From contig VGRA01000010.1 in assembly GCA_016875515.1 (NCBI GenBank), positions 1 through 15,241 on the forward strand: a DNA stretch of 15,241 nt. Direction: 5' to 3'. Numbering within the stretch: the stretch's first letter is position 1; every line of letters starts with the position of its first letter. Shown piece after piece: positions 269 to 15,241 of the stretch. The notes below the pieces were generated by a model. That model saw nothing but the letters and a program-made list of their open reading frames with translations, searched no databases and was not told the origin of the DNA. This DNA comes from Deltaproteobacteria bacterium. Lineage in GTDB: Bacteria; Myxococcota; Myxococcia; Myxococcales; Myxococcaceae. The position numbers and the translations under genes are program-made.

Positions 269-871
269 CTACGGCGCGGCGGGGGCGGCGGCCTTGGGGG
301 CCTCGGGGACGGCAATCTGCAGGGTGGCGAAATTGATGTTGTTGTAGCCGGCAGTGGCGCAGCTGAACATGACGCGCTTCACAATCTTGAACTGCACGTC
401 CTTGTCCGCCTGGATGTTCACGTCACCCTTGAAGCCGTCCTGGTCGTTGGCCAGCGCACGCAGGTCCTCGTACTGCTTCTTCATCTCCCGCAGCTTCTCC
501 TCCAGCGCGGGAATGTTGAGGTAGTCCTCCTTGGACAGCTCGTCCACGCGGCCAATGACGGTGCCGGAGAGGATGACCTGGCCGGAGTTGACGTCCCCGC
601 CCTGCTGCTTGGTCACCATCACCACCGGGACCATCTCCACCTCCTTCACGTTGGAAGCCTCGGGCAGCTGGACCTCCTTCGTCATGCTGAGCACCTCGCC
701 CGTCGCCGAGAAGTTGGCGATGAGGAAGAGCACGATGATGACGAACATGTCCACCAGCGGCGTGATGAGCAGGTCCGCGAAGGTGCCCTTCTTGCCGGGG
801 CCGTGGCCCCCGAAGATGTGGGACTTGCGGAGGCGCTTACCGTAGCGGAAGCCGGGAGTGACGATGGGCAT
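269..871 (-). CDS. aglS: TolR/ExbD-family motor protein, probable AglS
   Basis: This 200-residue protein has a basic cytoplasmic N-terminus (residues 1-33) and one transmembrane helix at about 34-54. The conserved channel aspartate is D41, in TPLVDMF. A long periplasmic region includes a charged helical stretch (about 121-145) and the ExbD-type end, with QADKDVQFKIVKRVM and ATAGYNNINFAT, before a short Ala/Pro tail. The ExbD/TolR family forms dimers inside a TolQ pentamer and uses proton flow for periplasmic work. The gene follows a second TolR-like gene by 34 nt, the third in a TolQ-TolR-TolR order. That order and the sizes match AglR-AglQ-AglS of the Myxococcus gliding motor. Family assignment is firm; the exact name rests on order and size. 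A weak SD (GGAA) lies about 12 nt before the ATG. Confidence 0.72.
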   Translation of the reverse strand: MPIVTPGFRYGKRLRKSHIFGGHGPGKKGTFADLLITPLVDMFVIIVLFLIANFSATGEVLSMTKEVQLPEASNVKEVEMVPVVMVTKQQGGDVNSGQVILSGTVIGRVDELSKEDYLNIPALEEKLREMKKQYEDLRALANDQDGFKGDVNIQADKDVQFKIVKRVMFSCATAGYNNINFATLQIAVPEAPKAAAPAAP

Positions 872-905: not shown

Positions 906-1394
906 TCAGCCCATGGCCGGGGAGACGGAGACGTTGGGCAGCCCCGCGCCGATGCACTCGTCGATGATGCGGACGAGGTCCTCGTAGCGCACGGCGTCCT
1001 CCGTCTGGAGGGTAATCTGCGACTGGTCCGGGAGGCTTTGGCGCAGCTCCTTCAGCTTCGCGGTCAGCTTGACGAGGTCCAGCTTGCGGGTCTCGGTGCG
1101 GGTGACCGGGATGGGATCATACGTGGAGCCCCCCACCGTCAGCTTCAGCTCCTTCTCGGTGATGAGCAGCGTCACCGGGACGGTCTTCTGGTCCTGCTGC
1201 TCCTGGTTGGGGTCCGAGGGACCACCGGACTGCTGCACCTGGAGCCGGCCAATCTGCGTCCACACCGCCGTCATGATGAGGAAGCTGATGGTCACCGCCA
1301 TCAGGTCGATGAACGGGACGAGGTTGATGGCGGTGTCGAGGGGCTTCTTCTTGCCCTTTCCACCAGAGTCCCCAAGGTCCATTCCGCCGGCCAT
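906..1394 (-). CDS. aglQ: TolR/ExbD-family motor protein, probable AglQ
   Basis: This is a 162-residue protein. A Gly/Lys-rich cytoplasmic start leads into a single transmembrane helix at about 22-45, with the proton-carrying aspartate D30 in VPFIDLM. The periplasmic part is about 115 residues and ends in the ExbD-like segment TEDAVRYEDLVRIIDEC followed by GAGLPNVSVSP. In Myxococcus xanthus an equivalent AglQ aspartate (D28, as I recall) is required for gliding; the two-residue offset here fits a small difference at the N-terminus. The start at 1394 is supported by an AAGGAG Shine-Dalgarno seven nt upstream. It follows the TolQ homologue by 153 nt and precedes the second TolR homologue by 34 nt. 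A generic ExbD paralogue from another myxobacterial Tol/Exb cluster is the alternative. Confidence 0.72.
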   Translation of the reverse strand: MAGGMDLGDSGGKGKKKPLDTAINLVPFIDLMAVTISFLIMTAVWTQIGRLQVQQSGGPSDPNQEQQDQKTVPVTLLITEKELKLTVGGSTYDPIPVTRTETRKLDLVKLTAKLKELRQSLPDQSQITLQTEDAVRYEDLVRIIDECIGAGLPNVSVSPAMG

Positions 1395-1547: not shown

Positions 1548-2276
1548 CTACTGGCCCGAGGGCAGCGTGGCGCCCTTGAACTTGTCCTTGTTCGCCACGA
1601 TGAGGTTCAGCACCGACACCGACGTCTCGTTGATGTCATTGATGAGATGCTGCGTGCGGCCCATCAGGATGGAGAAGGCCACCAGCGCGGGGATGGCCGT
1701 GATGAGGCCGAACGCGGTGCAGTTCATGGCTTCCGAGATGCCGTTCGCCAGGATGGTGGCCTTGTCGGCCGGGTTCACATTGGCCACCGCCTCGAAGCAG
1801 CTGATGAGGCCGGACACCGTGCCGAGCAGGCCGGAGAGCATGGCCGCGTTGCCGAGCATGGCCAGGTAGCCGGTGCGGGCGTCCAGCGTCGGGGTCTCGC
1901 GCAGGGTGGCCTCGTCCAGCGCCGCCTGCACCTCGTCCTCGCCCTTCGGGACGTTCATCAGGCCCGCCTTGATGACGGAGGTCAGCGGAGTGGGCTTCTG
2001 GCCCGCCACGTAGTTGATGGCCTGGTCGAGGTTGCCCTCGTAGATGTGCCGCTTCAGCCCCTTGACGAAGCCGTCTTTGTTGATGGACGCGGAGAAGAAC
2101 AGCACCGCGGACCGCTCGATGATGATGGCCAGCGCAACCACGAGGCACACGGTGATGGGCCACATGCCCCAGCCGCCCTCGACGTACCGCTTGGCCAACG
2201 AGGCGAAAAGGCCCTCGTTGCCGCCGCCACCGGCGTTTGCGAACACGGCGAGGTTGCTCAGAGACGACACGTTCAT
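1548..2276 (-). CDS. aglR: TolQ/ExbB-family motor channel protein, probable AglR
   Basis: This 242-residue protein has three transmembrane helices at about 37-60, 136-160 and 184-206. The TolQ/ExbB signature is complete: GLLGTVSGLI (149-158) in the second helix, and NCTAFGLITAIPALVAFS (185-202) in the third, with T187 near the proton path. TolQ-type proteins form the pentameric stator around a TolR dimer. The length and the two following TolR genes match AglR of the AglRQS gliding motor, which energises the Glt complex in Myxococcus. The start at 2276 has a GGAGG Shine-Dalgarno nine nt upstream (2290-2286), preceded by a GC hairpin and a good promoter, so the cassette probably begins its own transcript here. 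An ExbB of a transport system is less likely, because no TonB or receptor gene is adjacent. Confidence 0.75.
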   Translation of the reverse strand: MNVSSLSNLAVFANAGGGGNEGLFASLAKRYVEGGWGMWPITVCLVVALAIIIERSAVLFFSASINKDGFVKGLKRHIYEGNLDQAINYVAGQKPTPLTSVIKAGLMNVPKGEDEVQAALDEATLRETPTLDARTGYLAMLGNAAMLSGLLGTVSGLISCFEAVANVNPADKATILANGISEAMNCTAFGLITAIPALVAFSILMGRTQHLINDINETSVSVLNLIVANKDKFKGATLPSGQ

Positions 2277-2327: not shown

Positions 2328-2357
2328 ATCCTACCCGCAGCCCCGGAAAGGTGTCAA
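2328..2357 (-). promoter_or_regulatory. Sigma70-type promoter for the motor cassette
   Basis: On the minus strand a perfect TTGACA (2357-2352) is followed after 18 nt by TAGGAT (2333-2328). A start site near 2321 would give a 5' UTR of about 45 nt containing the hairpin and SD of the TolQ-like gene. The promoter sits in the 91-nt gap after the kinase stop codon. It is the best consensus promoter I found in the window. Confidence 0.6.
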
Positions 2358-2367
2358 TGCCAATGGA

Positions 2368-3954
2368 TCACGCCAGGAGGCGGATGGAGAACGTCGTCCC
2401 CTCGCCCGGGCTGCTCTCCACGCGCAGGCTGCCCCCGTGGCGCTGGACGATGGAATGGGCGATGGAGAGCCCCAGCCCCGTCCCCATCCCCTCCGCCTTG
2501 GTGGTGAAGAACGGCTCGAAGATGCGTGGGAGAACGTCCGCTGGAATCCCACACCCGGTGTCTGCCACGCGGATGAGCACCCCCTGCCCCTCCGGCTCCA
2601 CCGACAGCCGGACGCGCCCACCGGGCTGCAGGGCGTGGCAGGCGTTTGTGAGCAGGTTCACGAACACCTGCACCAGGTTGCTGCGGCTGCCCTGAACCGG
2701 GGGCACGGGCTGGTAGTCCCGCTCCACGGTGACGCCGTGCTTGTGCAGCACGTGCTCGCTGAAGCTGACGGAGAGGTCCAGCAGCCGGTGCACGTCCACC
2801 CGGTCCGTCCGCGTGTCGGACGGGGGGCGGGCGTAGGTGACCAGGTCCTGGGCGAAGCGCAGCACCCGGTCCGTGTTGTCCAGGATGCGGCGCAGCTTCT
2901 CCTGCTCCCCCGCATCCGCGTCCGGCTGCCCCACCCGCCGGGCCAGCAGCGCGTCTGCGTAGGTGTGGATGGCCGTCAGCGGGTTGTTGATTTCGTGCAC
3001 CACCGAGGCGGCCAGCTGCCCCAGGGAGGCCAGCCGCTCCGAGTGCACCACCGCCCGCTCCAGCGCCCGCAGCGCGGTGAGGTCCTGCCCAATGGCGATG
3101 ACGCCGTCTGCCTGCTCCCCGTTGGGCAGCGCGGAGAACGAGAAGGCCACCCGCACCTCGCGCCCCCCCGCCGCCCGCAGCCGCGTCTCCACGTTGGACA
3201 GCGGCCGCCCGGCCACCGCCTCCGCCATGACCGCCTCGAACGCCGCCCGCTCCTCGTCCGGCACCAGCGCCGAGAGTGGTCGCCCCAGCACCTGCTCGCG
3301 GTGAAGCCCCGTCAGCCGGCACAGCGCCCCGTTGAAAATCAGCACCGTGCCGTCCAGCCGCGTGGCGCAGATGAGGGCGTTGGCGTGCTCGAGCAGTTCC
3401 TCCAGCGAGCCGCGGACGAACTTCAGCTCGTCAATCAGCTTGGCGGTGCGCATTCCCACCGCCACCAGGTTGGCCACCTGGATGAGCACGCGCGCGTCCG
3501 CCTCCAGGTCCGCAGGGCCCTCCGGCCCCACCTCCACGTTGAGCAGGCCGAACAGCTGCCCGGACGCCACCAGGGGCGCGGACAGCCCCCGCGCCGTGCC
3601 CTCGAACAGCAGCGGCACCGGGCCGTCCACCACCTCCACGCGCCCGGCCGCCTGCTCGTCCAGCCGCAGCCCGGTGCGCTGGACCGCGCTGCGCTTGATG
3701 ACCAGGGGCCCCGTGGCCGGGTCCTTCAGCGGCCCCTCGGCGTACAGAGAGGTGAGGGCGAAGCTGCGCGGGTCCGTCACCCGCACCGCGAAGGCGCGCC
3801 CGGGGAGCAGCCCCCGCAGCGCCCGGGCCACCACCTGCACCAGCGCCTCCTCGGAGGTGGCCCCGGCCACCTCACGCCCCAGGGAAAGCAGCGCCTCGGC
3901 CTGGCTGGGCAGCGGCACGGCGGGGGCGGAAAGCGGGGTGACTTCAGTCTTCAT
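2368..3954 (-). CDS. Soluble sensor histidine kinase, GAF-PAS-DHp-CA
   Basis: This 528-residue protein has no membrane segment. Residues ~17-170 form a GAF-like domain, and ~180-298 a PAS domain (ICATRLDGTVLIFNGALCRLTG). The DHp region starts at ~300, with phospho-acceptor H320 in VVHEINNPL. The ATPase domain is complete: N-box N437 (NLLTNA), G1 box DTGCGIP (465-471), F-box FEPFFTTK and G2 box GTGLGLS. It should autophosphorylate in response to a cytoplasmic signal; no response regulator gene is in the window. I chose the ATG at 3954, which overlaps the preceding kinase by 11 nt. The frame is open to 4032, but the extra 26 residues are Arg/Ser/Thr-rich shadow sequence, and the GAF domain begins after 3954. 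Overlap with the preceding gene indicates coupled translation and a joint function of the two kinases. Confidence 0.88.
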   Translation of the reverse strand: MKTEVTPLSAPAVPLPSQAEALLSLGREVAGATSEEALVQVVARALRGLLPGRAFAVRVTDPRSFALTSLYAEGPLKDPATGPLVIKRSAVQRTGLRLDEQAAGRVEVVDGPVPLLFEGTARGLSAPLVASGQLFGLLNVEVGPEGPADLEADARVLIQVANLVAVGMRTAKLIDELKFVRGSLEELLEHANALICATRLDGTVLIFNGALCRLTGLHREQVLGRPLSALVPDEERAAFEAVMAEAVAGRPLSNVETRLRAAGGREVRVAFSFSALPNGEQADGVIAIGQDLTALRALERAVVHSERLASLGQLAASVVHEINNPLTAIHTYADALLARRVGQPDADAGEQEKLRRILDNTDRVLRFAQDLVTYARPPSDTRTDRVDVHRLLDLSVSFSEHVLHKHGVTVERDYQPVPPVQGSRSNLVQVFVNLLTNACHALQPGGRVRLSVEPEGQGVLIRVADTGCGIPADVLPRIFEPFFTTKAEGMGTGLGLSIAHSIVQRHGGSLRVESSPGEGTTFSIRLLA

Positions 3955-5473
3955 GCGAGGACGCCTTGTCGAGGTCGACGATGACCTGGTCTCCCACGTA
4001 CGCCTTGGTCTCGTAGCGGGTGATTTTTCCAATTTTCCGGACGATGTCTGCCATCCGCTCCGCCTCGCGGTGGAGGGCCTCCAGGGCCTTGCTGTTCGGG
4101 GAGGCGGGGGAGGCCCGGCGGCGCAGCAACTCCGCGTACCCCAGCACGCAGGTGAGGGGCTGGTTGAGCTCGTGCGCGGCGGTGCCGGCCAGCGCCACCA
4201 GCACGGCGTTCTTCTCGCTCTCCTGCAGCCGCCCCTCCGTCTCCGTCAGCTTCTGCTCCAGCCGCATCAGCGTGCGCAGGTCCGAGAAGATGCCCAGCGT
4301 GGCAACCTCCCGCCCGTCCTGGTACACGACAGAGGCGGTCATGTTGACGGGCACCCGCTCGCCGGACTTCGTGAGGATGTCCTGCCGGCGCGGCCCCAGC
4401 CGCCCTCCGCCCGCCCGCAGCGCCCGCATGAGCTCCCGGGCATCCCCGGCCGGGTACAGTCGCTGGACGTTGAGGGCGCGCGCCTCCTCCGCGGTGTAGC
4501 CGCAGATGTCCTCCGCCCCCTTGTTGAACAGGATGATGCGGCCGCGCAGGTCTGCCGCGAGGATGGCGTCCACCGACGAGTCGATGAGCCGCTCGAGGAA
4601 GTCCTTGGCCTGCTGGATGGCCTCCACCGCCGCCCGCGCCCGCCGCTCCCGCTCGGACTGGCCGCGAACGGACTCCAGCAGCCGCACATGCCGCAGCGCC
4701 AGCGCCGTGGCGTGGGCCACCGAGGCCAACACCTGGAGCTCCTCCGGGCTGAAGCTGCTGCGCCCCCCGCCGGCACGGAGCAGCAGCACCCCCGTCACCC
4801 CCCCGCGCTGCAGGAGCGGCAGCGCCGCAATGGCCTGCACACCCTGCGCCGCCAGCGGGCCACGGGCCTGCTCCAGCAGCGGGTGGCCCTGCGCCTCCTC
4901 CAGCAGCACCGGGGCCTGCGTGCGGATGACCTCGCGGATTTCCGGGTACCGCTCCAGCTCGATGCGCTGCCCCTTCCGGGTGCTGTCGTCCGAGCTGGCC
5001 ACGAGGAAGCCCACCCCCTCCTGCGCGTCCAGCGCCACCAGCGCGGCGCGCTGGATGCCCATGGTCTCCGCCAGCCAGCGCGTCACCTCGTGCAGGAGCG
5101 CCTCGGGGGCCTCCGCGGCGGCGTAGCCCGCGGCCAGCTGCTGCAGGAGCAGCAGGTGGTGCCCCTGCCGCGCCCGGGCAAGCACCCCCTCCAGCCGGAA
5201 GGGCAGCTCCGCCGCAAGCCTCCCGGCGTGCACCACCTCCCACGCCCCGCAGGTGTGGGCCCGGCGCACGTCTGCCGGGTCATCCCCCACCACCGCCACC
5301 ACCGGCCGGGCGCCCCACGCCAGCTGCGCCAGCGCCTCCCACCCGCCCGGCTCGCCCACGTCCACCAGCACCGGGGCGCGCCCCTCCTCTCCCGGCTGCA
5401 GCGGCGCCACCGCCGCCCGCAGCGGGCTGCCCGCGGGGAGCACCTCCATGGGGATGGGGGGAAGCGCGGCCAT
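3944..5473 (-). CDS. Sensor kinase-like protein lacking the ATPase domain (GAF-PAS-DHp)
   Basis: This 509-residue soluble protein begins with a degenerate receiver-like region (~33-105), in which D38 and P42 keep the Asp-x3-Pro spacing of a receiver phosphorylation site but the usual paired acidic residues before it are not evident. A GAF domain (~108-266), a helical linker and a PAS domain (~287-402, with AADLRGRIILFNKGAEDICG) follow. Next is a DHp domain with H434 in AAHELNQPL and a second helix to ~487. The protein ends about 20 residues later, with no N, G1, F or G2 boxes. The next gene starts inside the last codons (ATGAAGACTGA), so this end is genuine and not an unnoticed frameshift. 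It could be a phospho-acceptor or partner for the complete kinase downstream. It follows the Cys-rich lipoprotein gene by 6 nt with only a weak SD, so translation is probably coupled. Start at Met1 is uncertain; Met9 is possible. Confidence 0.85.
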   Translation of the reverse strand: MAALPPIPMEVLPAGSPLRAAVAPLQPGEEGRAPVLVDVGEPGGWEALAQLAWGARPVVAVVGDDPADVRRAHTCGAWEVVHAGRLAAELPFRLEGVLARARQGHHLLLLQQLAAGYAAAEAPEALLHEVTRWLAETMGIQRAALVALDAQEGVGFLVASSDDSTRKGQRIELERYPEIREVIRTQAPVLLEEAQGHPLLEQARGPLAAQGVQAIAALPLLQRGGVTGVLLLRAGGGRSSFSPEELQVLASVAHATALALRHVRLLESVRGQSERERRARAAVEAIQQAKDFLERLIDSSVDAILAADLRGRIILFNKGAEDICGYTAEEARALNVQRLYPAGDARELMRALRAGGGRLGPRRQDILTKSGERVPVNMTASVVYQDGREVATLGIFSDLRTLMRLEQKLTETEGRLQESEKNAVLVALAGTAAHELNQPLTCVLGYAELLRRRASPASPNSKALEALHREAERMADIVRKIGKITRYETKAYVGDQVIVDLDKASSHED

Positions 5474-5479
5474 GGGCAG

Positions 5480-6628
5480 CTACTGCACCTGCAGGCAGGA
5501 CAGCCCCTCGTCCGGGGCGCAATTCTGTCCAATCAGACAGCCACCCACGCCGTTGAAGTCCACGCAGCGGATGGTGCGGCAGTCCCCGTCCGTGACGCAC
5601 GCGCGCTTGCTGATGCTGCACCGGCCGGCGCTGCAGGTCTCCTGTGCGCAGTCGCTGTCCACGAGGCAGGTGCAGTACCCCACCGGGTCCCCCTCGCTGA
5701 CGGCGCACTGCCCGGCGCAGAATCCGTTGGGGGCCCCGGGGGTCTTGGCGCAGCTGCCGCCGCGGGGGCACTCGGCGTCCGTGGCGCAGGGCAGCGCCGG
5801 ATTGGACGGGCAGGAGGGGTTGGCCGCGCTGCACTGGGGCAGCGCCCCGCCCCCCACCACGATGACGTCCTGGCAGCCGTAGCCGCGCGGGCAGGCCTGC
5901 CCCTCGCTGCAGTCCACGCCGCAGAAGTAGTTGCCCACGTTCTGGGTGTCGATGAGGCAGAAGTTGGGGCCGTTGCCGCACAGCGCGTCCCCGCCGCCGA
6001 AGCTGCAATTGCTGCAGTAGGGGCGGCGCACCGGGTCGAAGTCCTCGCCGCACCGGGCGTAGGGAACGCCCGAGTCCACCTGAACGCCGCAGATTTCACC
6101 GAAGCGGCAGAAGCGGTCCGAGGAGCAGAAGGTGGGGTCACACGCCCCCAGCTGGCCGCCGTCCGCGTCACACGCCCCGTCCCCGCAGCGGCAGGAGACC
6201 CCCTCGCAGTCCCCGTCCCGGCGGCACCCCTCCACGCAGGCCGAGGCCGGCCCGCACACCTGCCCCAGCGGGCACTGCAGGTCCGTGGTGCAGCGGCCGC
6301 GGGAGATGCAGCTGCCGGTGGTGGTGTCACACACCAGCGCGGCGTCCAGGCAGTCCGCGTTCTTCTCGCACCCGGCCCGATCCTGGCAGAAGCCAGAGGC
6401 GTTGCAGAACTCCGTGGCCATGCAGCCCTGGTTGGTGCGGCACAGGCAGGCGCCCGTCTCCGTCTCGCACTTGTAGGCGGACGCCGGGCTGCCGCAGTCC
6501 GAGTCCTGCTCGCACCCGGTGCTGCGCACGGTGTTGTCGCGGCAGCCGGACAGCGCCAGGCCTGCCAGCAGCAGGGCGGGGAGCGCGTGCCCGGCGCGCG
6601 GCAGGACGGATGGAGGGCGGTTGCTCAT
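5480..6628 (-). CDS. Cys-rich lipoprotein with 52 mature cysteines besides the lipidated one
   Basis: This 382-residue protein starts with a signal peptide and lipobox LSGC (C29). The rest is a secreted, cysteine-dense chain of 52 further Cys, with no other domain I can name. The first ~100 residues follow a C-x5-C-x5/8-C-x5/6-C unit (for example 63-69-75-81 and 113-119-125-131), usually with an acidic C-x2-D-x-D/E-C core, as in CEQDSDC, CRRDGDC and CVTDGDC. This recalls the Dickkopf-N-like Cys-rich modules frequent in myxobacterial surface lipoproteins; the resemblance is by spacing only. The even Cys number suits full disulfide pairing, so periplasmic or surface location is expected. The start at 6628 overlaps the IPT-protein stop in ATGA, with no visible SD, so coupled translation is likely. 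The frame is open upstream to 7543, but that extension lacks a signal peptide and is shadow sequence. Function unknown. Confidence 0.88.
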   Translation of the reverse strand: MSNRPPSVLPRAGHALPALLLAGLALSGCRDNTVRSTGCEQDSDCGSPASAYKCETETGACLCRTNQGCMATEFCNASGFCQDRAGCEKNADCLDAALVCDTTTGSCISRGRCTTDLQCPLGQVCGPASACVEGCRRDGDCEGVSCRCGDGACDADGGQLGACDPTFCSSDRFCRFGEICGVQVDSGVPYARCGEDFDPVRRPYCSNCSFGGGDALCGNGPNFCLIDTQNVGNYFCGVDCSEGQACPRGYGCQDVIVVGGGALPQCSAANPSCPSNPALPCATDAECPRGGSCAKTPGAPNGFCAGQCAVSEGDPVGYCTCLVDSDCAQETCSAGRCSISKRACVTDGDCRTIRCVDFNGVGGCLIGQNCAPDEGLSCLQVQ

Positions 6629-9600
6629 GGGAAGAAGCCGTCGGAGAGGGAGACGGTGTAGCTGCTCCAGCCCAGGGGCGAGAGCGCGTCGTACGTCCAC
6701 TGCGCGTAGCCGAAGCGGGGGGACCGGCTGCCGTAGTGCAGCACGTAGAGCACGGTGGTGGGCTCGGTGGCCCGCAGCGCTGCCACCGCGGGCTGCGGCA
6801 AGGTGACGGTGGTCTCGGTGCCGGGCAGCACCACCTGCCAGAGCGTCACCAGCCCCATCATGGTCAGCTTGACGATTTTCACCTCCTGCACGTCCGGCAG
6901 CGTCCCCGTCGCCCGCGCCCAGCTCACCGTCCCGTCGAACATCACCGAGGGGTAGTCCGGGGCGGTGACAGTGGGCACCGGCAACAGCGGCCCCACCGTC
7001 ACCCCCAGCGAGAGGTCCCCCGGCTGGCGCCGGAAGGCGTAGCTGTAGGGCAGGCCCGAGAGCGCCCCCGTGGGCTCCTGCGCGTGGGCCACGAAGAGGA
7101 AATTGCTGCCGTCCAGCTGCGGGAAGCCGGGGAAGCTGACCGGCGTGCCGGGCGAGGTGATGACCGTGCCCTGCCCCGTGCCGGTGCCGCCCGGGCCGCT
7201 GCGGCTGCTGCCCCGGGCCGCGGTGTTGTACGGGTTGGCGACGAAGCCCTCCGCCCCCAGGTCCAGCCAGGCGTACAGGCCGTGCAGCCCCGCCACGCCG
7301 CCGGGGTAGGTGACCGGCTGGTCGATGGTGACGGGCACCGTCACGTCCAGCGCCATGTCCAGGATGATGTCCTGGTTGGTGGCCGGGGTGTCCGGGGAGG
7401 CCGGCACGTTGCGGCGGACGCCCATCCGGTACGGCGTGAAGGTGCCGGCCTGGTTGTCCGCAATGCCAAAGTAGGCGTACACCGCGCGCAACCCCGCCGA
7501 GGTGGCGACGAGGAAGTTGCCGCCGTCCTGCGTCACCACCCACGTCTCGCCGTCCCGCGGGTACTCCTCGCCGAACGGGGCGCCCCAGAACGGCGAGGGC
7601 ACGGAGACGAAGACGCGCGCCTCCAGCACCTCGCCTGGCTGCAGCGGCCGCGGCGCCTTGAAGCCCGTCACCCGGCCGGAGATGAGGGACGCGGGCGTGC
7701 CTGCCGGGGGCGGGCCGGAGGAGGGCTCTCCGCCGCCCACGCGGGTGATGAAGACGGTGAGGTTCTCCGCGTTGACGGAGGTGACGGTGGTGGAGGAGTA
7801 GCCCTCCTTGAACACCGTCACCACCTGCGCCTTCACCAGCGACGGGTCCGAGAACACCAGCTGCCCGCGCGCGTCCGTGAAGCCCTGGAAGGGCGTGGCC
7901 GCGTCGTTGCCCAGCATCACGTTGGCGGACGGCACCGGGGCGCCTTCATAGCCGCGGGTGGCGTCCAGCACCGTCACGTTGAGGGTGCCCACCAGCGGGC
8001 CGCCGGACTGGCCGCCGGAGATGCTGCGCGGGTCCACGTAGCTGAAGCCGCCGGGCAGCGTGTCCACCTGCCCGCCCCGCTCCACCTTCACGTCCACCGT
8101 CCCCACGGACACCGCGCGCGGGGTGCGGCAGGTGAGGGTGTGGCCGTCCACCACCTTCACGTCCTTGGCCTTGTCCGTCCCGAACGTGACGAGCGTGCCC
8201 GGGCCGAATCCCGTCCCCAGCACCGTCACCAGCGTCCCGCCCGCAATGGCGCCGCGGTCCGGCTGGGCGCGCCCCACGGTGAGCGGCTCCTCGAAGGTGT
8301 AGGCGGCGGGCAGCGTGGCCTCGTTCTCCACGTCGGAGGCTGCGTGGACGCGCACCGGCACCGGCGCCCCGCCCGGGCCCGCGGGCGTCGTCACCGGGGC
8401 GGCCGTCTCCGTCACCGCGCCGGCAGGCGTGGCCTGCAGCGCCCCCACGCGCACCACCGCGTCCGGGGGCAGGGCCTCGCCCGCCACCGTCACCGCGGTG
8501 CCGCCGGCCAGGGGCCCCGCGGCCGGGGTGACGGACTGCAGCTGCAGCTGCCACGTCCAGCCGCCGGACAGCGTGCGGGTGGTGGTGCCGTCGGACACCG
8601 CCACGTCGGAGATGCGCGGCGTGCCGGCCCGCGGCGGCATGAACAGCTCCGCGGAGGTGGCAGTGCGCGCCCCCAGCAGCACGGTCGCCCCACCCACGGT
8701 GACGGACAGCCCGGCGGCGTCCAGCCCCTGCCCGGTGAGCAGCACGCGCGTCCCCCCGGCCGGCGGCCCCAGCCGCGGGGACAGCGCGAAGGCGGCGAAC
8801 GGCCCGGCCGCTTCCGCGTAGGTGAAGCCGGACTTCACCGTCCAGCTGCCGCGCGGCGTGGTGACGGTGACGTCCACCGCGCCCGGCTGGGTGGCGGCGG
8901 GGGTGGTGGCAGACAGCTGCCCGTCCGAGTCCACCGTGAAGGCGGCGGCCGGCTGCGCGCCGAAGCGGACCCCTGTGGCCCCGGACAGCCCCGCGCCCGC
9001 AAGCACCACCTCGGTGCCGCCGGAGAGCGGCCCCACCGGCGGGCTGATGGCGGTTACGCGCGTGTCTGCCACGTAGCGGAAGCCGTTGCGGACCATCCCC
9101 ACGCCGTTCTTGTCGTAGGCCGTGACGTCCACCGCGCCCGCCGCCCCGGGCGGGGCCACCGCGCGCACCTGCGAGGTGGACACCCACGTCACGCTCGGGC
9201 TGGTGAGGCCACCGAACAGCACCTGCAGCCCGGGCATCAGCCCCTGTCCGGAGAGCGTCACCTCGGTCCCGCCGGAAGTGGGCCCCTCGCCGGGCGAGAC
9301 GCCGGTGACGTACAGCTCCTCGAAGTAGGTGAAGCAGCCGTCGCAGGTGGCGGTGCCGCGGGGGCTGGTGAGGGTGACGTTCACCTGCCCGCGCGCCCCG
9401 GGCGGCACCCGCAGGTCAATGGTCTCGTCGTCGATGACCTGGAAATCCTGCACCGGGTTGGCGCCGAACTTCACGCTGGTGAGCTTCCTGGCCCCGGTGG
9501 CGGTGGCGGCCACGCCCTGCACGAAGCCGCTGCCCTGCAGCACCACCTGCGCCCCGCCCGCGGTGCCGCCGCGCGGGGGCAGCACGCGCAGCAGCTTGAA

Positions 9601-9807
9601 CTCGGACACCCCGCCGTCCTCGCCCCCCGTCCCCGCGTCCGGCGCGCCGGCGTCCGGGCCGTCCACCCCCGCGTCCTCCGCGGGGGCGCCGGCGTCCACC
9701 TCCGTGCCCGCGTCCGAGTTGGCGCTGCTGCGGGGGCAGCCGCCGCAGGCACCGAGCGCCGCGGCGAGGAGGGACAGGACCGCGGCGCGGCGGAGGGCGA
9801 CACTCAT
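6625..9807 (-). CDS. Large lipoprotein with six IPT/TIG repeats
   Basis: The protein has 1060 residues. The signal peptide ends in lipobox LGAC (C21). A DAG-rich linker (five DAG triplets, residues 32-59) should hold the body away from the membrane. Six IPT/TIG (Ig-like) repeats follow at about 72-162, 165-246, 249-330, 339-419, 423-506 and 509-591, each opening with a P..G...GGT pattern such as SPGEGPTSGGTEVTLSG and closing with a GF-Y type strand. Residues ~606-690 resemble a carboxypeptidase regulatory-like beta-sandwich. Residues ~706-1060 match nothing I recognise. A CxxC (C155, C158) sits in the first repeat. IPT repeats are usually structural or binding modules in surface proteins. The start at 9807 overlaps the previous stop (ATGA) and has a GAGGTG SD 8 nt upstream inside the preceding gene. 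It is the longest member of the five-lipoprotein operon and the likely scaffold. Confidence 0.9.
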   Translation of the reverse strand: MSVALRRAAVLSLLAAALGACGGCPRSSANSDAGTEVDAGAPAEDAGVDGPDAGAPDAGTGGEDGGVSEFKLLRVLPPRGGTAGGAQVVLQGSGFVQGVAATATGARKLTSVKFGANPVQDFQVIDDETIDLRVPPGARGQVNVTLTSPRGTATCDGCFTYFEELYVTGVSPGEGPTSGGTEVTLSGQGLMPGLQVLFGGLTSPSVTWVSTSQVRAVAPPGAAGAVDVTAYDKNGVGMVRNGFRYVADTRVTAISPPVGPLSGGTEVVLAGAGLSGATGVRFGAQPAAAFTVDSDGQLSATTPAATQPGAVDVTVTTPRGSWTVKSGFTYAEAAGPFAAFALSPRLGPPAGGTRVLLTGQGLDAAGLSVTVGGATVLLGARTATSAELFMPPRAGTPRISDVAVSDGTTTRTLSGGWTWQLQLQSVTPAAGPLAGGTAVTVAGEALPPDAVVRVGALQATPAGAVTETAAPVTTPAGPGGAPVPVRVHAASDVENEATLPAAYTFEEPLTVGRAQPDRGAIAGGTLVTVLGTGFGPGTLVTFGTDKAKDVKVVDGHTLTCRTPRAVSVGTVDVKVERGGQVDTLPGGFSYVDPRSISGGQSGGPLVGTLNVTVLDATRGYEGAPVPSANVMLGNDAATPFQGFTDARGQLVFSDPSLVKAQVVTVFKEGYSSTTVTSVNAENLTVFITRVGGGEPSSGPPPAGTPASLISGRVTGFKAPRPLQPGEVLEARVFVSVPSPFWGAPFGEEYPRDGETWVVTQDGGNFLVATSAGLRAVYAYFGIADNQAGTFTPYRMGVRRNVPASPDTPATNQDIILDMALDVTVPVTIDQPVTYPGGVAGLHGLYAWLDLGAEGFVANPYNTAARGSSRSGPGGTGTGQGTVITSPGTPVSFPGFPQLDGSNFLFVAHAQEPTGALSGLPYSYAFRRQPGDLSLGVTVGPLLPVPTVTAPDYPSVMFDGTVSWARATGTLPDVQEVKIVKLTMMGLVTLWQVVLPGTETTVTLPQPAVAALRATEPTTVLYVLHYGSRSPRFGYAQWTYDALSPLGWSSYTVSLSDGFFP

Positions 9808-11264
9808 GGGTAGGACACCTCGAGCAAGTAGCTGTTCTGCACCCGGCCATCCGGGGCGCGCACGCGGGCATGCAGCGGCCGGCCGGCGGCGAAGGCGGAG
9901 GAGATGGAGACGCGGGTGAGGGCAGGGTCGTCCGAGCAGCCCAGCTGCGCCTGCCCGTCAAACACGCACAGCTCCAGCAGCCCCGCGGATGGGGTGTACT
10001 GGCCCAGCGTCACCTGCAGCCCCTTCCCGGGCGGCACGTCCAGCCGGAACCAGTCCTGGTCCTGCGGGCACACGTTCCCGGGGAGGCTGACGGCGGCATT
10101 GGCGGGCGTGGCCTGGGCGGCCGCGTCGTTGGGCTCGAAGCCGTCGTCGGTGCAGGGGGTGCCCCGGGACAGCAGAAACGTCACGTCGTAGGGCTGGAAC
10201 GGGTCCGTGCTGGAGACGCCCACGGCGTAGCTCCCCGGGGCCCCCGCCACGAAGGAGGCGAGCAGCTTGCCCGTGGCAAGCGTCCGCCCCGCGCTGTCCT
10301 GCACCACGGTGGTGAAGGTGTCCTCGGCGAACGGGTCCGCGTCCACGTTGATGCCCAGCTGGTCCCCGCGCTGCAGCTGCAGCGAGAACCAGTCCTGGTC
10401 CCCCGCGCACAGCGTGAGGTAGCCGTACGCCCTGGGTTGGGCCGGGAAGGCGGCGGTGGCCTGGTTGTTGGGCTCGAGCGCGTCCGGCTGGCACTGGCGC
10501 GGCACGCAGCGGCCGGTGCCCACGTCACAGCGCTCGGCGGCCGGGCATGCGGCGTCCGTCACGCACGGCGGCAGCTTCGACACGCACTCGCCCGTCTGCA
10601 GGTAGCAGACGAGCGGCACCTTGCACTGGGCGTTGCCGTAGCAGCGGGCGGAGGCCGCGCAGCGCCCCGCCGCGTCGCACGTGAGCCCCGGGCCGCAGTC
10701 CGCGTCCGCCGCGCACTGCACGCAGAGGCTCGCCACGCACTTCTCCCCGGGGCTGCACACCTCCGACTGGTCCTCCGCGGTGCAGCGCGGCACGCACCGG
10801 CGCAGCCCGGTGTTGCACGCCTCCGTGGCGGCGCAGTCCGCGTCCGCGACGCAGCCCAGGTCCTCCTCGCACACCAACGTGGCGCCGTTGCAGCGCTGGC
10901 CGGTGGGGCACTCGGCGGAATCCCCCGAGGTGCACAGGTTGACCGCGGTGCGGTCCCGGCAGAGCCCCTGCTTGCACCACTCGCCGGCCTGGCACTGCTC
11001 GTTGGCGGCGCAGTCCGCGCCCCAGCCGTCCCGGTAGGTGCAGCCGCGGGTCTCCGGGTCACACTGCTCGCGCAGCAGGCACTGGCCGGTGGACTCGCAC
11101 GGGGCGCAGCGCCCCTCGTCCGTGCAGATGCGCCCCCCGCTGCAGTCCGCGCGGGCGGCGCACGTCTCCTCCGTCCCCGCGTCCGGGGTGGCCACGGGCT
11201 TCGCTGCCGGGCAGGCGGTGAGCACCACGCACGCGGCCCACGCCGCGAGGGCACGCGCCGTCAC
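9804..11264 (-). CDS. Lipoprotein with nine 4-Cys repeats and two PPC-like domains
   Basis: This 486-residue protein starts at GTG 11264, which overlaps the preceding stop (GTGA); a GGAGG SD lies 7 nt upstream. Lipobox LTAC gives C18. Residues 35-253 contain 36 Cys in nine consecutive units of C-x5/8-C-x5-C-x4/6-C, for example 35-41-47-53, 138-144-150-157 and 234-240-246-253. Two beta domains follow, each with the bacterial pre-peptidase C-terminal (PPC) pattern: DALEPNN...DQDWFSLQL (~261-365) and DGFEPND...DQDWFRLDV (~374-485). Six further Cys (258, 286, 371, 399, 433, 443) fall in or beside them. PPC domains are typically secretion or binding modules attached to proteases, but no protease is present here. 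The Cys repeat is shared with the lipoprotein at 5480-6628, which suggests related disulfide-rod structures in one complex. Substrate or partner unknown. Confidence 0.9.
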   Translation of the reverse strand: MTARALAAWAACVVLTACPAAKPVATPDAGTEETCAARADCSGGRICTDEGRCAPCESTGQCLLREQCDPETRGCTYRDGWGADCAANEQCQAGEWCKQGLCRDRTAVNLCTSGDSAECPTGQRCNGATLVCEEDLGCVADADCAATEACNTGLRRCVPRCTAEDQSEVCSPGEKCVASLCVQCAADADCGPGLTCDAAGRCAASARCYGNAQCKVPLVCYLQTGECVSKLPPCVTDAACPAAERCDVGTGRCVPRQCQPDALEPNNQATAAFPAQPRAYGYLTLCAGDQDWFSLQLQRGDQLGINVDADPFAEDTFTTVVQDSAGRTLATGKLLASFVAGAPGSYAVGVSSTDPFQPYDVTFLLSRGTPCTDDGFEPNDAAAQATPANAAVSLPGNVCPQDQDWFRLDVPPGKGLQVTLGQYTPSAGLLELCVFDGQAQLGCSDDPALTRVSISSAFAAGRPLHARVRAPDGRVQNSYLLEVSYP

Positions 11265-12721
11265 GGCGCCGCCTCCGGTACGGGCGCGAGCGCCCCGGAG
11301 GGCCAGGTGATGTCCACCACGGGCCAGGCCTCCCCCTCCGAGTCCAGCGTCTTCTTGAACTCCCCCTTGAGCACCCCGTACTGGTACACGCGCACGGTGG
11401 CGTTGGAGGTGGGGAGCGGCTGCAGGTGGGCGCTCGCGAGCACCACGTGCACCCGGTAGGTGTCCTCCACGGGGTTGACGTAGCCGAACACCTCCGGCCC
11501 GTACCCGGTGAGCGCGTCCCGCAGGTAGCCGGGGTCGTCCGAGGCGTCCCCCGCCACGCCCCAGTCCGGGGCCCGGTTGGCGTAGTGGCAGTCCGCGTCC
11601 GTGCCCAGGGGCGCTCCGGGGGCGTTGGTGACGTGGAGGTCCAGGTCCGTCACCGCGTTGTCCCAGAACAGCTCCACGAGCAGCTTCTGGGCGGGGGAGG
11701 CCACCACGGTGAGGCGGGCGGGGGTGAGGGACTTCGCGCCGAGCGCGTCCGTCACCTCCAGCTGCACCTCGTACTGGCCGGGCAGCGTGGGGTCCAGGGT
11801 CATGCTGGCCTCGGCGGCGTCCGGGGGGGTGAGGGCGGTGGCGCTGCCGAGCGGCTTCTGGCGCAGCGTCCACCTGTAGGTGAGCGGGGTGTGTCCGTCC
11901 GGATCGTTGCTGTCGGTGCCGTCCAGCGCCACCACCATGCCGGGGGCGCCGTTGCCCACTGGGGCAATGGCGGCCACCGGTGCGCGGTTGATGGCGGCGG
12001 CGAGCGTGACGAGCACCTCCGGGCGGTCCGGGTCCGTGCAGCGCAGGCGCACCGCGCCGGCCTGGGCGGCGGGTTCGCCGGGCACCGCGGTGAACTTCAC
12101 CGTCAGCTGGATTTCCCCGGGCAGGCCCGTGGCGGCCACGGCCTTCACCGTGGCGGGCGTCTTGGTGCTGCCCACGAAGGAGAAGGCGGACGGGGTGCCG
12201 TCCACCAGAGCAATTTCCTCGAGCACCAGGTCCGCCGTGCCGGTGCTCTTCACGGTGAGCGTCTTCACCGCGGAGGTGCCCTCGGCCACGGTGCCGAAGT
12301 CCAGCGCCTCGGGGACCACTTCCATCTTTGCCTTGGTGCTCCCGGTCCCGGCCAGGGCCACGGTGACCAGGGGGTTCTCCGCGTCGTCCGTCTCCAGCGC
12401 GAGCGTGGCGGCGTACGGCTGCTCCAGCGGGGGCAGGAACGCAACCACCACCGCGGCGGAGGTGCCCCCGGCCAGCTCCGGGGGGAAGGAGACCACGCGG
12501 AACGGCACGCCCGGCTCCTGGATGACCGCCGAGTTCACCTTGAGCGGGGCGCGCCCCACATTGGAGAGGATGATGTCTGCCCGCCGCTCGTTGAGCACCG
12601 GCACGGGACCGAAGTCCTGGCGCTCCACCGGGGGCACCAGGCGCGGCCGGACGGTGGCCACGTTGTCCCCGCCGCAGGCGGTGGCCAGCACCAGCAACAG
12701 GACGGAGAGGCGCTGGGTCAT
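11261..12721 (-). CDS. Lipoprotein with ASH/HYDIN-like, PKD and YfaP-like domains
   Basis: This 486-residue protein has a signal peptide ending at ATAC (C16); the -3 residue is Ala, which is less usual but acceptable. Two Ig-like ASH/HYDIN (choice-of-anchor-like) domains lie at ~30-127 (QDFGPVPVLNERRADIILSN) and ~132-245 (LDFGTVAEGTSAVKTLTV). A PKD-type domain is at ~247-342 (GTDSNDPDGHTPLTYRWTL), and a YfaP/DUF2135-like domain at ~346-475 (ELFWDNAVTDLDLHV). All are beta-rich extracellular modules with no catalytic residues that I can see, so a structural or adhesive role is likely. The ATG at 12721 overlaps the VWA gene's stop in ATGA, with a GGAGG SD seven nt upstream. The frame is open to 12916, but that part is Arg/Gly-rich shadow and hides the signal peptide. 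Domain names are from pattern recognition; the PKD and YfaP-like calls are the most secure. Confidence 0.88.
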   Translation of the reverse strand: MTQRLSVLLLVLATACGGDNVATVRPRLVPPVERQDFGPVPVLNERRADIILSNVGRAPLKVNSAVIQEPGVPFRVVSFPPELAGGTSAAVVVAFLPPLEQPYAATLALETDDAENPLVTVALAGTGSTKAKMEVVPEALDFGTVAEGTSAVKTLTVKSTGTADLVLEEIALVDGTPSAFSFVGSTKTPATVKAVAATGLPGEIQLTVKFTAVPGEPAAQAGAVRLRCTDPDRPEVLVTLAAAINRAPVAAIAPVGNGAPGMVVALDGTDSNDPDGHTPLTYRWTLRQKPLGSATALTPPDAAEASMTLDPTLPGQYEVQLEVTDALGAKSLTPARLTVVASPAQKLLVELFWDNAVTDLDLHVTNAPGAPLGTDADCHYANRAPDWGVAGDASDDPGYLRDALTGYGPEVFGYVNPVEDTYRVHVVLASAHLQPLPTSNATVRVYQYGVLKGEFKKTLDSEGEAWPVVDITWPSGALAPVPEAAP

Positions 12722-13866
12722 GGCTTGCCCTCCTCGTAGTACTGGATTTCCACCTTCGCGTTGACGCCCGGGACGGACTCGCCGGCAAAGAAGACCACCG
12801 GCCCGCCCGGCTCGTACGCCCAGCCGTCCGGGCCACCCTGCTTCGGGGTGCAGACCAGGTTGTAGCTGTCCACGGGTACCTCCGGCGTGCAGGCGGCGCG
12901 GTCCACGCGCGCGCACGGCGCGGTCACGTCCGCGGGGGCGTTGCAGGGGTAGAGGATGCGCACCTGCAGCGTGGAGACGTTGGGGGCCTTGGCCAGGGCG
13001 AACTTCCGCTTCAGCCCCACGGCGGAGGTGGCCAGCTTGCGCAGGGTGGTGGCGAACTCCGGGTCGCAGATGCTGCCCAGCTCCCCCCCGGCCAGCTCCG
13101 CCAGCTGCTTGTAGCGGGTACCCGGCGTGGCGTTGCAGCTGTTGGTGGGCACGTCCCCGATGATGGCCGCGCTGCTCACCATGCCGTCGTTGCCGGGCCC
13201 CAGCGCGGTCTCCAGCCTGCGGTAGTAGTAGCGAAGGTCCGGGTTGCCGGACTTGTCCTCCTCGTCCGTGACGAAGACGATGTAGAGGTACGCGTCCGGC
13301 CGGAGGAACTCCACGGCATGCGCCACGTCGCAGTTGGCCTGGCAGGTGCTGGTGTTGGCCTTGTCCAGGCAGCCGGTGCGGCAGGTCTCCCGGGCCTCCA
13401 GGATGGGGGCGTTAAGAGCGGCGCGGGCATCCAGGGCCATGACGGCGGCGTCCATGCCCGCCTCGTACGGGCTGCCGGCCGTGCCCACGCGGATGTTGGA
13501 CTGGAAGGCGGCCACCGGGCTGGGCGTCTTCGGGGAGATGACGGCGGGGCTGCCCTTGAAGGCCCCCTTGTCCTGGAAGGTGTCCGTGGTGGTGATGGCC
13601 AGCCGGTAGTCGATGGCGTTCTTCGTGAAGACGTCGATGAAGCTGCCGAAGTTGCGGGCCAGGTTGGCCTGCCGGGGCTCCATGGACCCGGAGTTGTCCA
13701 CCACCCACAGCACGTCGATGCGGGAGGCGGACTGCTGCGTCCAGGTGTCCACCCGGACATCCGGGGGGAGCGCCTTGCGGATGCGGTCCTCGGAGCAGGC
13801 AGGGAGGCACAAGAAGAGAAGGACGGCCGCCGAGCGCAGCGGGGCCGTGGGGGGGTGGGCAGACAT
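12718..13866 (-). CDS. VWA-domain lipoprotein with intact MIDAS
   Basis: This 382-residue protein has a signal peptide and lipobox LPAC (C24). A von Willebrand A fold starts at about residue 48, with VLWVVDNSGSM carrying the MIDAS triad D57, S59, S61. T129 (GTAGS) and D201 (VFVTDEEDKSG) are plausible remaining metal ligands. Ten Cys (162, 166, 175, 179, 244, 267, 308, 318, 326, 339) suggest up to five disulfides, four of them in an insertion before the IVFVTDEE strand. The last ~90 residues are a beta-rich C-terminal region. The architecture is like CglB, the VWA surface adhesin lipoprotein of Myxococcus gliding; I cannot say from the sequence alone whether it is an orthologue. It opens the five-lipoprotein series, 14 nt after the preceding gene, with no SD before the ATG. 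The open frame extends upstream to 14790, but only this start gives a signal peptide. Confidence 0.88.
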   Translation of the reverse strand: MSAHPPTAPLRSAAVLLFLCLPACSEDRIRKALPPDVRVDTWTQQSASRIDVLWVVDNSGSMEPRQANLARNFGSFIDVFTKNAIDYRLAITTTDTFQDKGAFKGSPAVISPKTPSPVAAFQSNIRVGTAGSPYEAGMDAAVMALDARAALNAPILEARETCRTGCLDKANTSTCQANCDVAHAVEFLRPDAYLYIVFVTDEEDKSGNPDLRYYYRRLETALGPGNDGMVSSAAIIGDVPTNSCNATPGTRYKQLAELAGGELGSICDPEFATTLRKLATSAVGLKRKFALAKAPNVSTLQVRILYPCNAPADVTAPCARVDRAACTPEVPVDSYNLVCTPKQGGPDGWAYEPGGPVVFFAGESVPGVNAKVEIQYYEEGKP

Positions 13867-13877
13867 GTGAGGCGGGA

Positions 13878-13909
13878 AGGTTAGCGGATCTGCGCGGGCG
13901 GCGGAACCG
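13878..13909 (-). promoter_or_regulatory. Possible promoter of the lipoprotein operon, perhaps leaderless
   Basis: On the minus strand TAACCT (13883-13878) sits 11 nt before the VWA ATG, and only a poor -35 can be found about 17 nt further up. If TAACCT is the -10, transcription would start at or within a few bases of the ATG, giving a leaderless mRNA. That would fit the absence of any Shine-Dalgarno there. The hexamer overlaps the stop codon of the preceding small gene. Evidence is weak. Confidence 0.25.
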
Positions 13910-14252
13910 CGCGGCCGGTAGGTGGGGCGCCTTCCGTCAGGCCAGGTGCCCCAGCGAATGGACGACCCGCCAGCAGTCCAGGTTGCATCCGTTGCCCGGC
14001 CCAGCGCGCCCGGAGCCTCCCGCGCCAACGCTCGCGTTCTTCCGGCGTGAAGTCCTGGCCGTACAAGGCGAGGAACACCCGCTCGCGAAACGCCACGGTA
14101 CCGGGCACCAGGCCTTCGGCCTCGAGGCCCATGGCCCGCATGGTCCGCGCGCTGGCGACCATCTCCGCGCACATCTGGAGCCGCTGAAGCCCGGTTCGCC
14201 GCTGCATCAGGACGCGCAGCCGCTCCTCGACTTCGGGGGGCGTGCCGTTCAT
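13881..14252 (-). CDS. Small uncharacterised protein, possibly with a read-through tail
   Basis: This 123-residue frame has an ordered, mainly helical first part (about 1-85: EVEERLRVLMQRRTGLQRL, ASARTMRAMGLEAEG, ERVFLALYGQDFTPEERERW). The pattern recalls small two-gene-locus proteins found across bacteria beside nucleotidyltransferase-like or other partner genes; I cannot name it firmly. The final ~38 residues are Gly/Pro/Ala-rich, and many codons there end in A or T, unlike the rest of the gene and its neighbours. That tail may therefore be former non-coding DNA read after loss of the original stop. The ATG at 14252 overlaps the TGA of a short upstream frame (ATGA), a sign of a former or present operon pair. 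It ends 14 nt before the VWA lipoprotein gene and is probably not part of that system. Confidence 0.55.
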   Translation of the reverse strand: MNGTPPEVEERLRVLMQRRTGLQRLQMCAEMVASARTMRAMGLEAEGLVPGTVAFRERVFLALYGQDFTPEERERWRGRLRARWAGQRMQPGLLAGRPFAGAPGLTEGAPPTGRAVPPPAQIR

Positions 14253-14404: not shown

Positions 14405-15241
14405 CTACTCCACCCCGCCCCACCATTGCCCCGCGGGCGCCCCGTCCCCGGCCGGAGACACCCCCGGGACAAAGGCGGCGCCTGCCGCCCGCGCCGCCCA
14501 GTCCCCTTCCGTCCCGGCCACCCTGCGGAGCAGCCCATCCCTTGCCTGCACAACGGTGAGCCCCCCGAAGGCGCGCGAGAAGGCGGCGCCGAACCCCTCG
14601 GCGCCTGCCCAGGATACGGCGGCGAGCAGCCGCGGCTGGGCGCCTGAGAATTCGAGGCGCAGGTGCTCAACGAAGAGCCCGCCCGCGGACTCCGACAGCC
14701 CGTGCGCCTCCTTCGGCCCGTCCACCGCCCCGGTGAGGTCCTCCCCCCCGGAGCGGGCGAGCGCCTCGGCCACCTCGGCGGCGGAGGCATCCGCGAGGTA
14801 GCCCTCCACGGGCCCGGTGGCGCGCCCGTGGAGGCCCCGGCCGTACCGGGCCCCGGCCGAGACAGCCATCCCCTCGTGCACGAACCAGGGGATGCCGTTG
14901 CCGCCCGGAACGAGCCTCCCCTGCACCACGTGGACGAGCTCGTGGACGAGCGTGTCGTCCAGCTCGGCGGCGTCCTGCATCAGCCCAAGGGGGGTGGCCA
15001 GCGCGTCCCCCTCCGCAGCATCCACCGTCAGCGCGCCCGCCCCTTCCGCCCCCGGGACGTCCGCGAACGCCTCGTCCGGCAGCAGCACCCACCGCAACGG
15101 CCCCTGCGCCCAAGGCTCGTGCGCCGCAAGCCCCAGCTCCCATGCCACGAAGCCCAGCGCCGCGCAGCCGCGGGCCCACGCGCCGTCCAGCCGCGGGCCG
15201 TCCAGCGGCACTCCCGCGGGGGGGCCCACACCTCCAGCCGC
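14405..15241 (-). CDS. Peptidase MA-like zinc metallopeptidase, C-terminal part
   Basis: The frame is open to the window edge, so the N-terminus is missing; 278 residues are visible. Residue numbers are from the edge. HELVH at 100-104 supplies two zinc-binding His and the catalytic Glu. A third ligand, E123, lies in IPWFVHEGMAV, giving the HExxH-x18-E spacing of gluzincins. LVHELVHVVQ followed by a W..EG.A motif is the pattern of the peptidase MA family. A GTG at 15229 could be a start, but the GGAGGT there abuts it with no spacer and the frame continues, so I treat the gene as partial. The remaining ~150 residues are helical and Ala/Gly-rich. No signal peptide can be judged. It is upstream of, and separated from, the lipoprotein operon by the decayed small locus. 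Substrate unknown. Confidence 0.8.
   Translation of the reverse strand, partial: AAGGVGPPAGVPLDGPRLDGAWARGCAALGFVAWELGLAAHEPWAQGPLRWVLLPDEAFADVPGAEGAGALTVDAAEGDALATPLGLMQDAAELDDTLVHELVHVVQGRLVPGGNGIPWFVHEGMAVSAGARYGRGLHGRATGPVEGYLADASAAEVAEALARSGGEDLTGAVDGPKEAHGLSESAGGLFVEHLRLEFSGAQPRLLAAVSWAGAEGFGAAFSRAFGGLTVVQARDGLLRRVAGTEGDWAARAAGAAFVPGVSPAGDGAPAGQWWGGVE

Follow-up and report, generated by a model that had tools for sequence, protein, structure and literature searches.

A block of five lipoprotein genes in Myxococcia, a candidate surface complex compared with VWA adhesins of gliding and predatory bacteria

The grip of myxobacteria and Bdellovibrio on substrate and prey depends in part on VWA surface lipoproteins. 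CglB, the VWA surface adhesin of Myxococcus gliding, is a lipoprotein of a length similar to the VWA protein studied here. CglB is described as an outer-membrane lipoprotein and CglD as a predicted one (PMC4488436), and Bd0875 of Bdellovibrio as a surface lipoprotein with a metal ion-dependent adhesion site (MIDAS) that acts at the predator-prey junction, where the MIDAS motif is needed (PMC11003981). Here we compare with these proteins a cassette of five adjacent lipoprotein genes located in a stretch of 15,241 nucleotides (the window), which is the whole contig VGRA01000010.1 (G000:C10) of a draft genome of a Deltaproteobacteria bacterium from the Myxococcaceae (GCA_016875515.1, G000; 3.9 Mb, 904 contigs, 87% complete). 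Genomes, contigs, loci, families and genera are designated by our own handles (G, C, L, f and g).

The five genes, their joint occurrence and their order

The cassette lies on the minus strand and reads VWA (12718..13866, 382 amino acids), ASH (11261..12721, 486 amino acids), C9 (9804..11264, 486 amino acids, GTG start), IPT (6625..9807, 1060 amino acids) and C52 (5480..6628, 382 amino acids). Successive genes share 4-nt stop/start junctions (12721-12718 ATGA, 11264-11261 GTGA, 9807-9804 ATGA and 6628-6625 ATGA); these and the gene coordinates had been given correctly in a preliminary description made from the DNA alone.

The five genes are kept or lost together as a block. Each of the five families was searched in the same 145 genomes of the class Myxococcia. 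ASH was found in 57 of them (E ≤ 1e-40), the other 88 giving no ASH match at this threshold, and C9 in 56; IPT was found in 65 genomes at E ≤ 1e-60, or 56 once nine with TIG-repeat-only matches were subtracted. C52 was found in 63 genomes at E ≤ 1e-20 and was strong (E ≤ 1e-50) in 55 of the 57 ASH carriers, the matches beyond these 55 being weaker Cys-rich proteins (for instance in G138, at 4e-39). VWA was clear in 55 of the 57 ASH carriers; at E ≤ 1e-10 it was matched in 113 genomes, a number that includes CglD-like proteins (assigned by frame size and VWA, not by the NF033765 model) and other VWA proteins. The full set was present in 53 of the 57 carriers, and in each of the four incomplete ones (G097, G131, G133, G134) the missing genes fall past a contig end; in G083 the IPT match spans the second half only. 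The carriers are spread over nine class families (f1 and f3 to f10, none in f2). They include Myxococcus sp. RHSTA-1-4, Archangium metagenome-assembled genomes and Myxococcus eversor, whose cassette has all four overlaps. Many genomes of genus group g7, to which M. eversor belongs, lack the set, and M. xanthus DK1622 probably lacks it too, judged from the g7 genomes. The checks for scattered or individually missing genes in relatives thus came out in favour of the earlier proposal that the five belong together.

Gene order was read at 40 loci that had been fetched around VWA matches, and hence selected by VWA. All five genes kept the same order and strand in 37 of them; the exceptions were L038, which ends at a contig edge, L058 (G088), a stretch without IPT and C52, and L060 (G111), with VWA on the opposite strand. 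Considering the fetched loci, the window and four genomes read by coordinates (G080, G083, G110, G115), the order was visible on one contig in 42 of the 57 genomes. The operon was rearranged in two: in G088, IPT and C52 stand together on a different contig, and in G111, IPT adjoins C9 and a partial C52 lies at the start of a contig. Both belong to genus g43, together with the intact G087; genomes of this genus (L086, L087) are about 2.9 Mb and keep all five genes, and one member came from sheep colon. The 4-nt overlaps, window included, were present at 30/40, 32/40, 31/39 and 28/38 scorable junctions, or 121 of 157 (raw counts). Tandem duplicates within the cassette were observed for C52 in G068 (G068:C81) and for IPT in G081 (G081:C126). 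The fixed stoichiometry that had been suggested on the strength of strict coupling was not borne out: the overlap is missing at 36 of the 157 scorable junctions, two operons are split, G068 and G081 carry duplicates, and there are loci with VWA and C52 only (see below). A sixth cassette member was sought among the flanking frames and rejected, the widest cluster reaching 12 of 41 loci and the inspected flanks (by eye ATP synthase gamma, lactamase fold, transporter, dehydrogenase) being lineage-specific. At loci L089-L155, from other organisms or distant, ASH-like frames occurred beside which the same models detected no VWA, C9 or C52; L121 alone among these loci gave a weak IPT match.

Beyond the class, a C52-like protein was present in 82 of the 195 genomes of the phylum (E ≤ 1e-30), 25 of these lying outside the class. 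Nineteen C52 loci were fetched: one from each of 17 of the 25 outside genomes, and second loci of G153 (f11) and G029 (class); a twentieth fetched locus, L207, holds the aglR region of G048. The complete VWA-ASH-C9-IPT-C52 order was found at four, each in a different one of the nine f11 genomes listed, and three of these four loci have a second C52. At 12 others, one to three C52-like genes come after VWA. At those 12 loci ASH and IPT gave no match at E ≤ 1e-4 and C9 matched C52-like frames only, the stretches examined being at most 20 kb, so that other parts of those genomes may hold ASH, C9 or IPT. Ten of the 12 come from eight outside families, f11 not among them, and the remaining two are the above second loci in G153 and G029. 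L195 (f17) showed IPT-C52 and a separate VWA-C52, L194 a C52 near the contig start, and L204 C52 only. VWA-C52 is likely the core of the set. Ten f1 genomes that were fetched have, at a distance from the cassette, a solitary second C52 gene with about 51-58% identity to the window C52 (L156-L164 and L174; G104:C26, G136:C58, G121:C283, G072:C23, G041:C95, G141:C32, G116:C65, G063:C84, G020:C361 and G080:C205). The idea of a second full cassette at these paralogues was discarded, the ten loci having given C52 only (L159 on a 6-kb contig; L160 with two C52); an eleventh locus, L165, on a 3.9-kb contig, may be the cassette's own C52.

Most of the protein features named in the preliminary description were confirmed. 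A signal peptide and lipobox-type Cys were read by eye at the start of all five window proteins. The VWA protein, which ends in a Cys-containing part, matched no Pfam family (VWA_2 was matched weakly in two of 19 relatives); its predicted structure is a Rossmann-like VWA/integrin-I fold, and the expected MIDAS-type motif was found as DxSxS (D57, S59, S61) plus D201. The DxSxS...D motif, with S or T last, is present in 37 of 41 VWA proteins. In the ASH protein two HYDIN/ASH Ig domains and PKD were called by Pfam; the YfaP module also claimed for it was reduced to a weak DUF2135-like C-terminus (DUF2135 in two of 19 family members, best E 0.0033). The C9 protein carries 44 Cys in repeats (40 invariant in an alignment of 40 sequences), followed by a PPC-type part; the PPC claim received no Pfam call in the window protein, and PPC was called in 13 of 19 family members. 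The six IPT repeats were recovered as six TIG/IPT stretches (Pfam, E 1.4e-56, residues ~66-591), followed by a carboxypeptidase-regulatory-like part and an all-beta C-terminal part (~700-1060) to which no fold could be assigned, IPT domains having filled the structure-search results and the model being weak there. The 52-Cys chain matched no Pfam family in the window protein and has 53 Cys with the lipobox Cys counted; 47 of the 53 are invariant and 52 occur in at least 90% of 38 sequences.

A candidate surface complex and its main alternative

We consider it somewhat probable that the five genes form one functional unit, a surface-facing outer-membrane multi-lipoprotein complex for metal-dependent adhesion or contact. 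The VWA lipoprotein would be the ligand-binding head. C52, a putative rod with some 26 disulfides, would serve as its stalk or partner, since at loci of other families it is the VWA-C52 pair that persists. The ASH-PKD, C9-PPC and six-IPT lipoproteins would be scaffolds between VWA and C52 in two classes, and the overlapping stops and starts may help the parts to be made together. Such a complex might bind substrate, matrix, kin or prey reversibly, as proposed for CglB and Bd0875. In M. xanthus lipoproteins, Lys at +2 is described as an inner-membrane signal and Ala at +7 as one for the extracellular matrix (PMC3222651); +2 Lys was found in none of the five window proteins (by eye, the C9 site taken as LTAC-P), and the cassette proteins would sit at the outer-membrane surface. 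A bolder version, possible and held tentatively, is a bacterial integrin-like receptor of several subunits: a core of MIDAS VWA head and disulfide-rod partner, extended in two classes of Myxococcota by three scaffolds, would form an obligate complex of all five lipoproteins that bears force in adhesion or recognises contacts.

Several points weigh against a joint surface complex. Contact between subunits is putative, and the location is read from sequence; under a permissive rule +2 Lys occurs in four of 38 C52 and two of 40 C9 proteins, and +7 Ala in six of 39 ASH proteins, among them the window ASH, which would allow some of the set to reach the matrix. Four of the 41 VWA proteins (L066, L067, L069, L071) have an altered DxSxS, so metal binding is not shared by all. 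In 13 of the 57 genomes the set is broken across contigs and its order only partly visible, and the sole strong C52 of G085 and of G142, located on a different contig, could be the solo paralogue. The five cassette families have distance matrices that correlate at r 0.95-0.97, but vertical descent alone gives such values. Seven CglD-like loci picked by VWA matches in long frames (1002-1335 amino acids) all carried ASH modules and then VWA, fused in one frame; this argument is only moderate because ASH modules are common and there are several large VWA-ASH frames per genome.

The best surviving alternative, which we regard as rather unlikely, is shared regulation without a complex, the five being separate surface lipoproteins of a common coat that is needed under the same condition. 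It would agree with the split of the operon in G088 and G111 without gene loss, with the wide differences in module type among the five and with C52 standing alone as a paralogue at ten fetched loci; against it are the distribution of the set over nine class families and one outside, with order kept at 37/40 and 4/4 fetched loci, the all-or-nothing losses, and the VWA-C52 pairing that persists in other families without the other three.

Neighbouring genes and the alternatives drawn from them

All genes downstream of the cassette in the window are on the minus strand. A GAF-PAS-HisKA protein (3944..5473) starts 6 nt after the C52 stop, with no HATPase found in it by Pfam; a HisKA-only form of this protein was observed in a relative (L036 14720-16687). 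It is followed by a PAS-HisKA-HATPase histidine kinase (2368..3976, start codon uncertain), a promoter-like site TTGACA-18-TAGGAT (2328..2357; one in the window against a shuffle mean of 0.2), and three genes: an aglR-like MotA/TolQ/ExbB gene (1548..2276, 242 amino acids), an aglQ-like ExbD/TolR gene (906..1394, 162 amino acids) and an aglS-like ExbD/TolR gene (269..871, 200 amino acids). Sequences apart, this TolQ-TolR-TolR trio fits AglRQS by Pfam families and by size, AglR, AglQ and AglS of M. xanthus being given as 245, 162 and 194 amino acids (PMC3169522).

The motor genes suggest that the cassette might be an Agl-Glt gliding accessory, adding to or replacing another surface adhesin and driven by the adjacent AglRQS motor, a reading that we find doubtful. 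In all 18 f1 genomes with both on one contig (window included) the set and the aglR-like gene share a strand, the set being upstream, with 3.2-32.1 kb between the C52 end and the aglR start; in G048 (f6) the two are 18 kb apart, and CglD is among the relatives of the cassette VWA. Against this, the aglR-like gene was found in 135 of the 145 genomes (E ≤ 1e-40; including G001 and G004, at 41-45% identity, which may hold another paralogue, and G144, partial) versus 57 with the ASH gene of the set; in the other 20 f1 carriers the set and the aglR-like gene are on separate contigs; in G082 (f1), G013 and G059 (outside f1) there was no aglR match in ~86-104 kb of contig downstream of the set; the strands are opposite in G048, aglR has its own promoter-like site, and the linkage could be explained by an inherited neighbourhood. 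The motor genes look like a neighbour and not part of the five-gene unit, for two reasons: a relative of the GAF-PAS-HisKA gene (36% identity) adjoins aglRQS in G048, and aglR is preceded by the promoter-like site. Both also led us to drop the idea of co-transcription with aglRQS. The GAF-PAS-HisKA gene probably goes with aglRQS rather than with the cassette. In family f1 a five-lipoprotein complex may serve gliding, as an accessory only since many close relatives are without the set.

Upstream of the cassette, on the same strand, a 123-amino-acid frame (13881-14252) stops 15 nt short of the VWA start codon. A further frame on that strand (14405-15241), presumably metallopeptidase-like, has an HExxH-type motif (HELVH); it is truncated by the contig end and found no match across the 40 fetched loci.

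It is improbable that the cassette captures nutrients or matrix by binding glycans, in the manner of the surface glycan-binding lipoproteins of Bacteroidota. The IPT lipoprotein matches the IPT-containing structures 6e57 and 7k44 of the surface glycan-binding protein SGBP-B, and proteins that act on glycans often carry PKD and PPC modules. On the other side, neither a TonB-dependent receptor, including the SusC type, nor a glycosidase was found among the ten window proteins (the contig ends 1.4 kb upstream of VWA, and the neighbours in other genomes were unscanned for these), and VWA is to our knowledge not typical of glycan-binding lipoprotein sets.

Outside f1, a CpaF-like ATPase gene was found convergent with the cassette, within ~8 kb, in eight of the 19 carriers, from six families (G001, G004, G013, G053, G059, G068, G073, G102). 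At the level of loci, a convergent CpaF-like T2SSE ATPase was observed, in distant families, at L057, L061, L062, L065, L067, L069 and L071, and a frame of 250-330 amino acids also stands near the cassette at L057, L061, L064 and L071, the L057 copy with a sub-threshold transglycosylase match. No Kil/Tad core gene was found among the ten window proteins in the Pfam scan, no search having been aimed at other Tad genes. A part in contact-dependent predation, tied to a Tad/CpaF-type machine, would accord with this neighbour and with the action of the MIDAS-family lipoprotein Bd0875 at the predator-prey junction (PMC11003981), and is improbable given that the CpaF-like gene occurs in 110 of the 145 genomes, many without the set, and that two scanned CpaF-like neighbours (L057, L062) gave no FHA match, whereas KilF is described with an FHA domain (PMC8460266).

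Comparison with known VWA lipoproteins

As the preliminary description had supposed, no account of the five-lipoprotein set was found in the literature searched, most subscription papers lying outside that search: each of the module types is known, and to the extent of that search neither the VWA-C52 core nor the obligate set of five lipoproteins has been described. The NCBIfam model of the MIDAS family adhesin (NF052240) was matched by all 19 scanned VWA proteins and that of CglD (NF033765) by 17 of them, the window VWA scoring 52.6 and 29.5 bits, far below the respective cut-offs of 700 and 400. Compared with CglB, the cassette VWA looks like a separate paralogue, judged from frames and not from the CglB sequence, because the cassette carrier G086 has a 458-amino-acid VWA frame in addition to the cassette; a 418-amino-acid one occurs in G012, and each of the five genomes examined for VWA frames also has a shorter one (391-508 amino acids), perhaps CglB. 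CglD, the Myxococcus gliding lipoprotein, shares with the cassette a predicted outer-membrane location and a VWA domain of the same family, and CglD-like frames carry ASH modules, as the second cassette gene does; CglD, however, is one chain of about 1000 amino acids, whereas in the cassette VWA and ASH are two genes, joined by C9, IPT and C52. Bd0875 (NF052240) has a lipobox, a VWA domain with MIDAS motif and a like size (model of 378 positions), all shared by the cassette VWA; unlike the latter, it is mentioned without a C52-like partner in the available part of its source (PMC11003981). With the integrin beta headpiece there is a fold analogy only (Foldseek TM-scores 0.34-0.41), and no homology is claimed.

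Were the integrin-like receptor real, it would be a surface machine of a kind not seen before, perhaps overlooked since it is missing from many genomes of the g7 group. The VWA surface lipoproteins of myxobacteria and Bdellovibrio are known as single proteins; a five-gene set retained or lost as one block throughout a class, with a phylum-wide two-gene core, would offer research on gliding and predation a compact new adhesion complex and, in VWA and C52, a defined pair for the study of head-stalk assembly.
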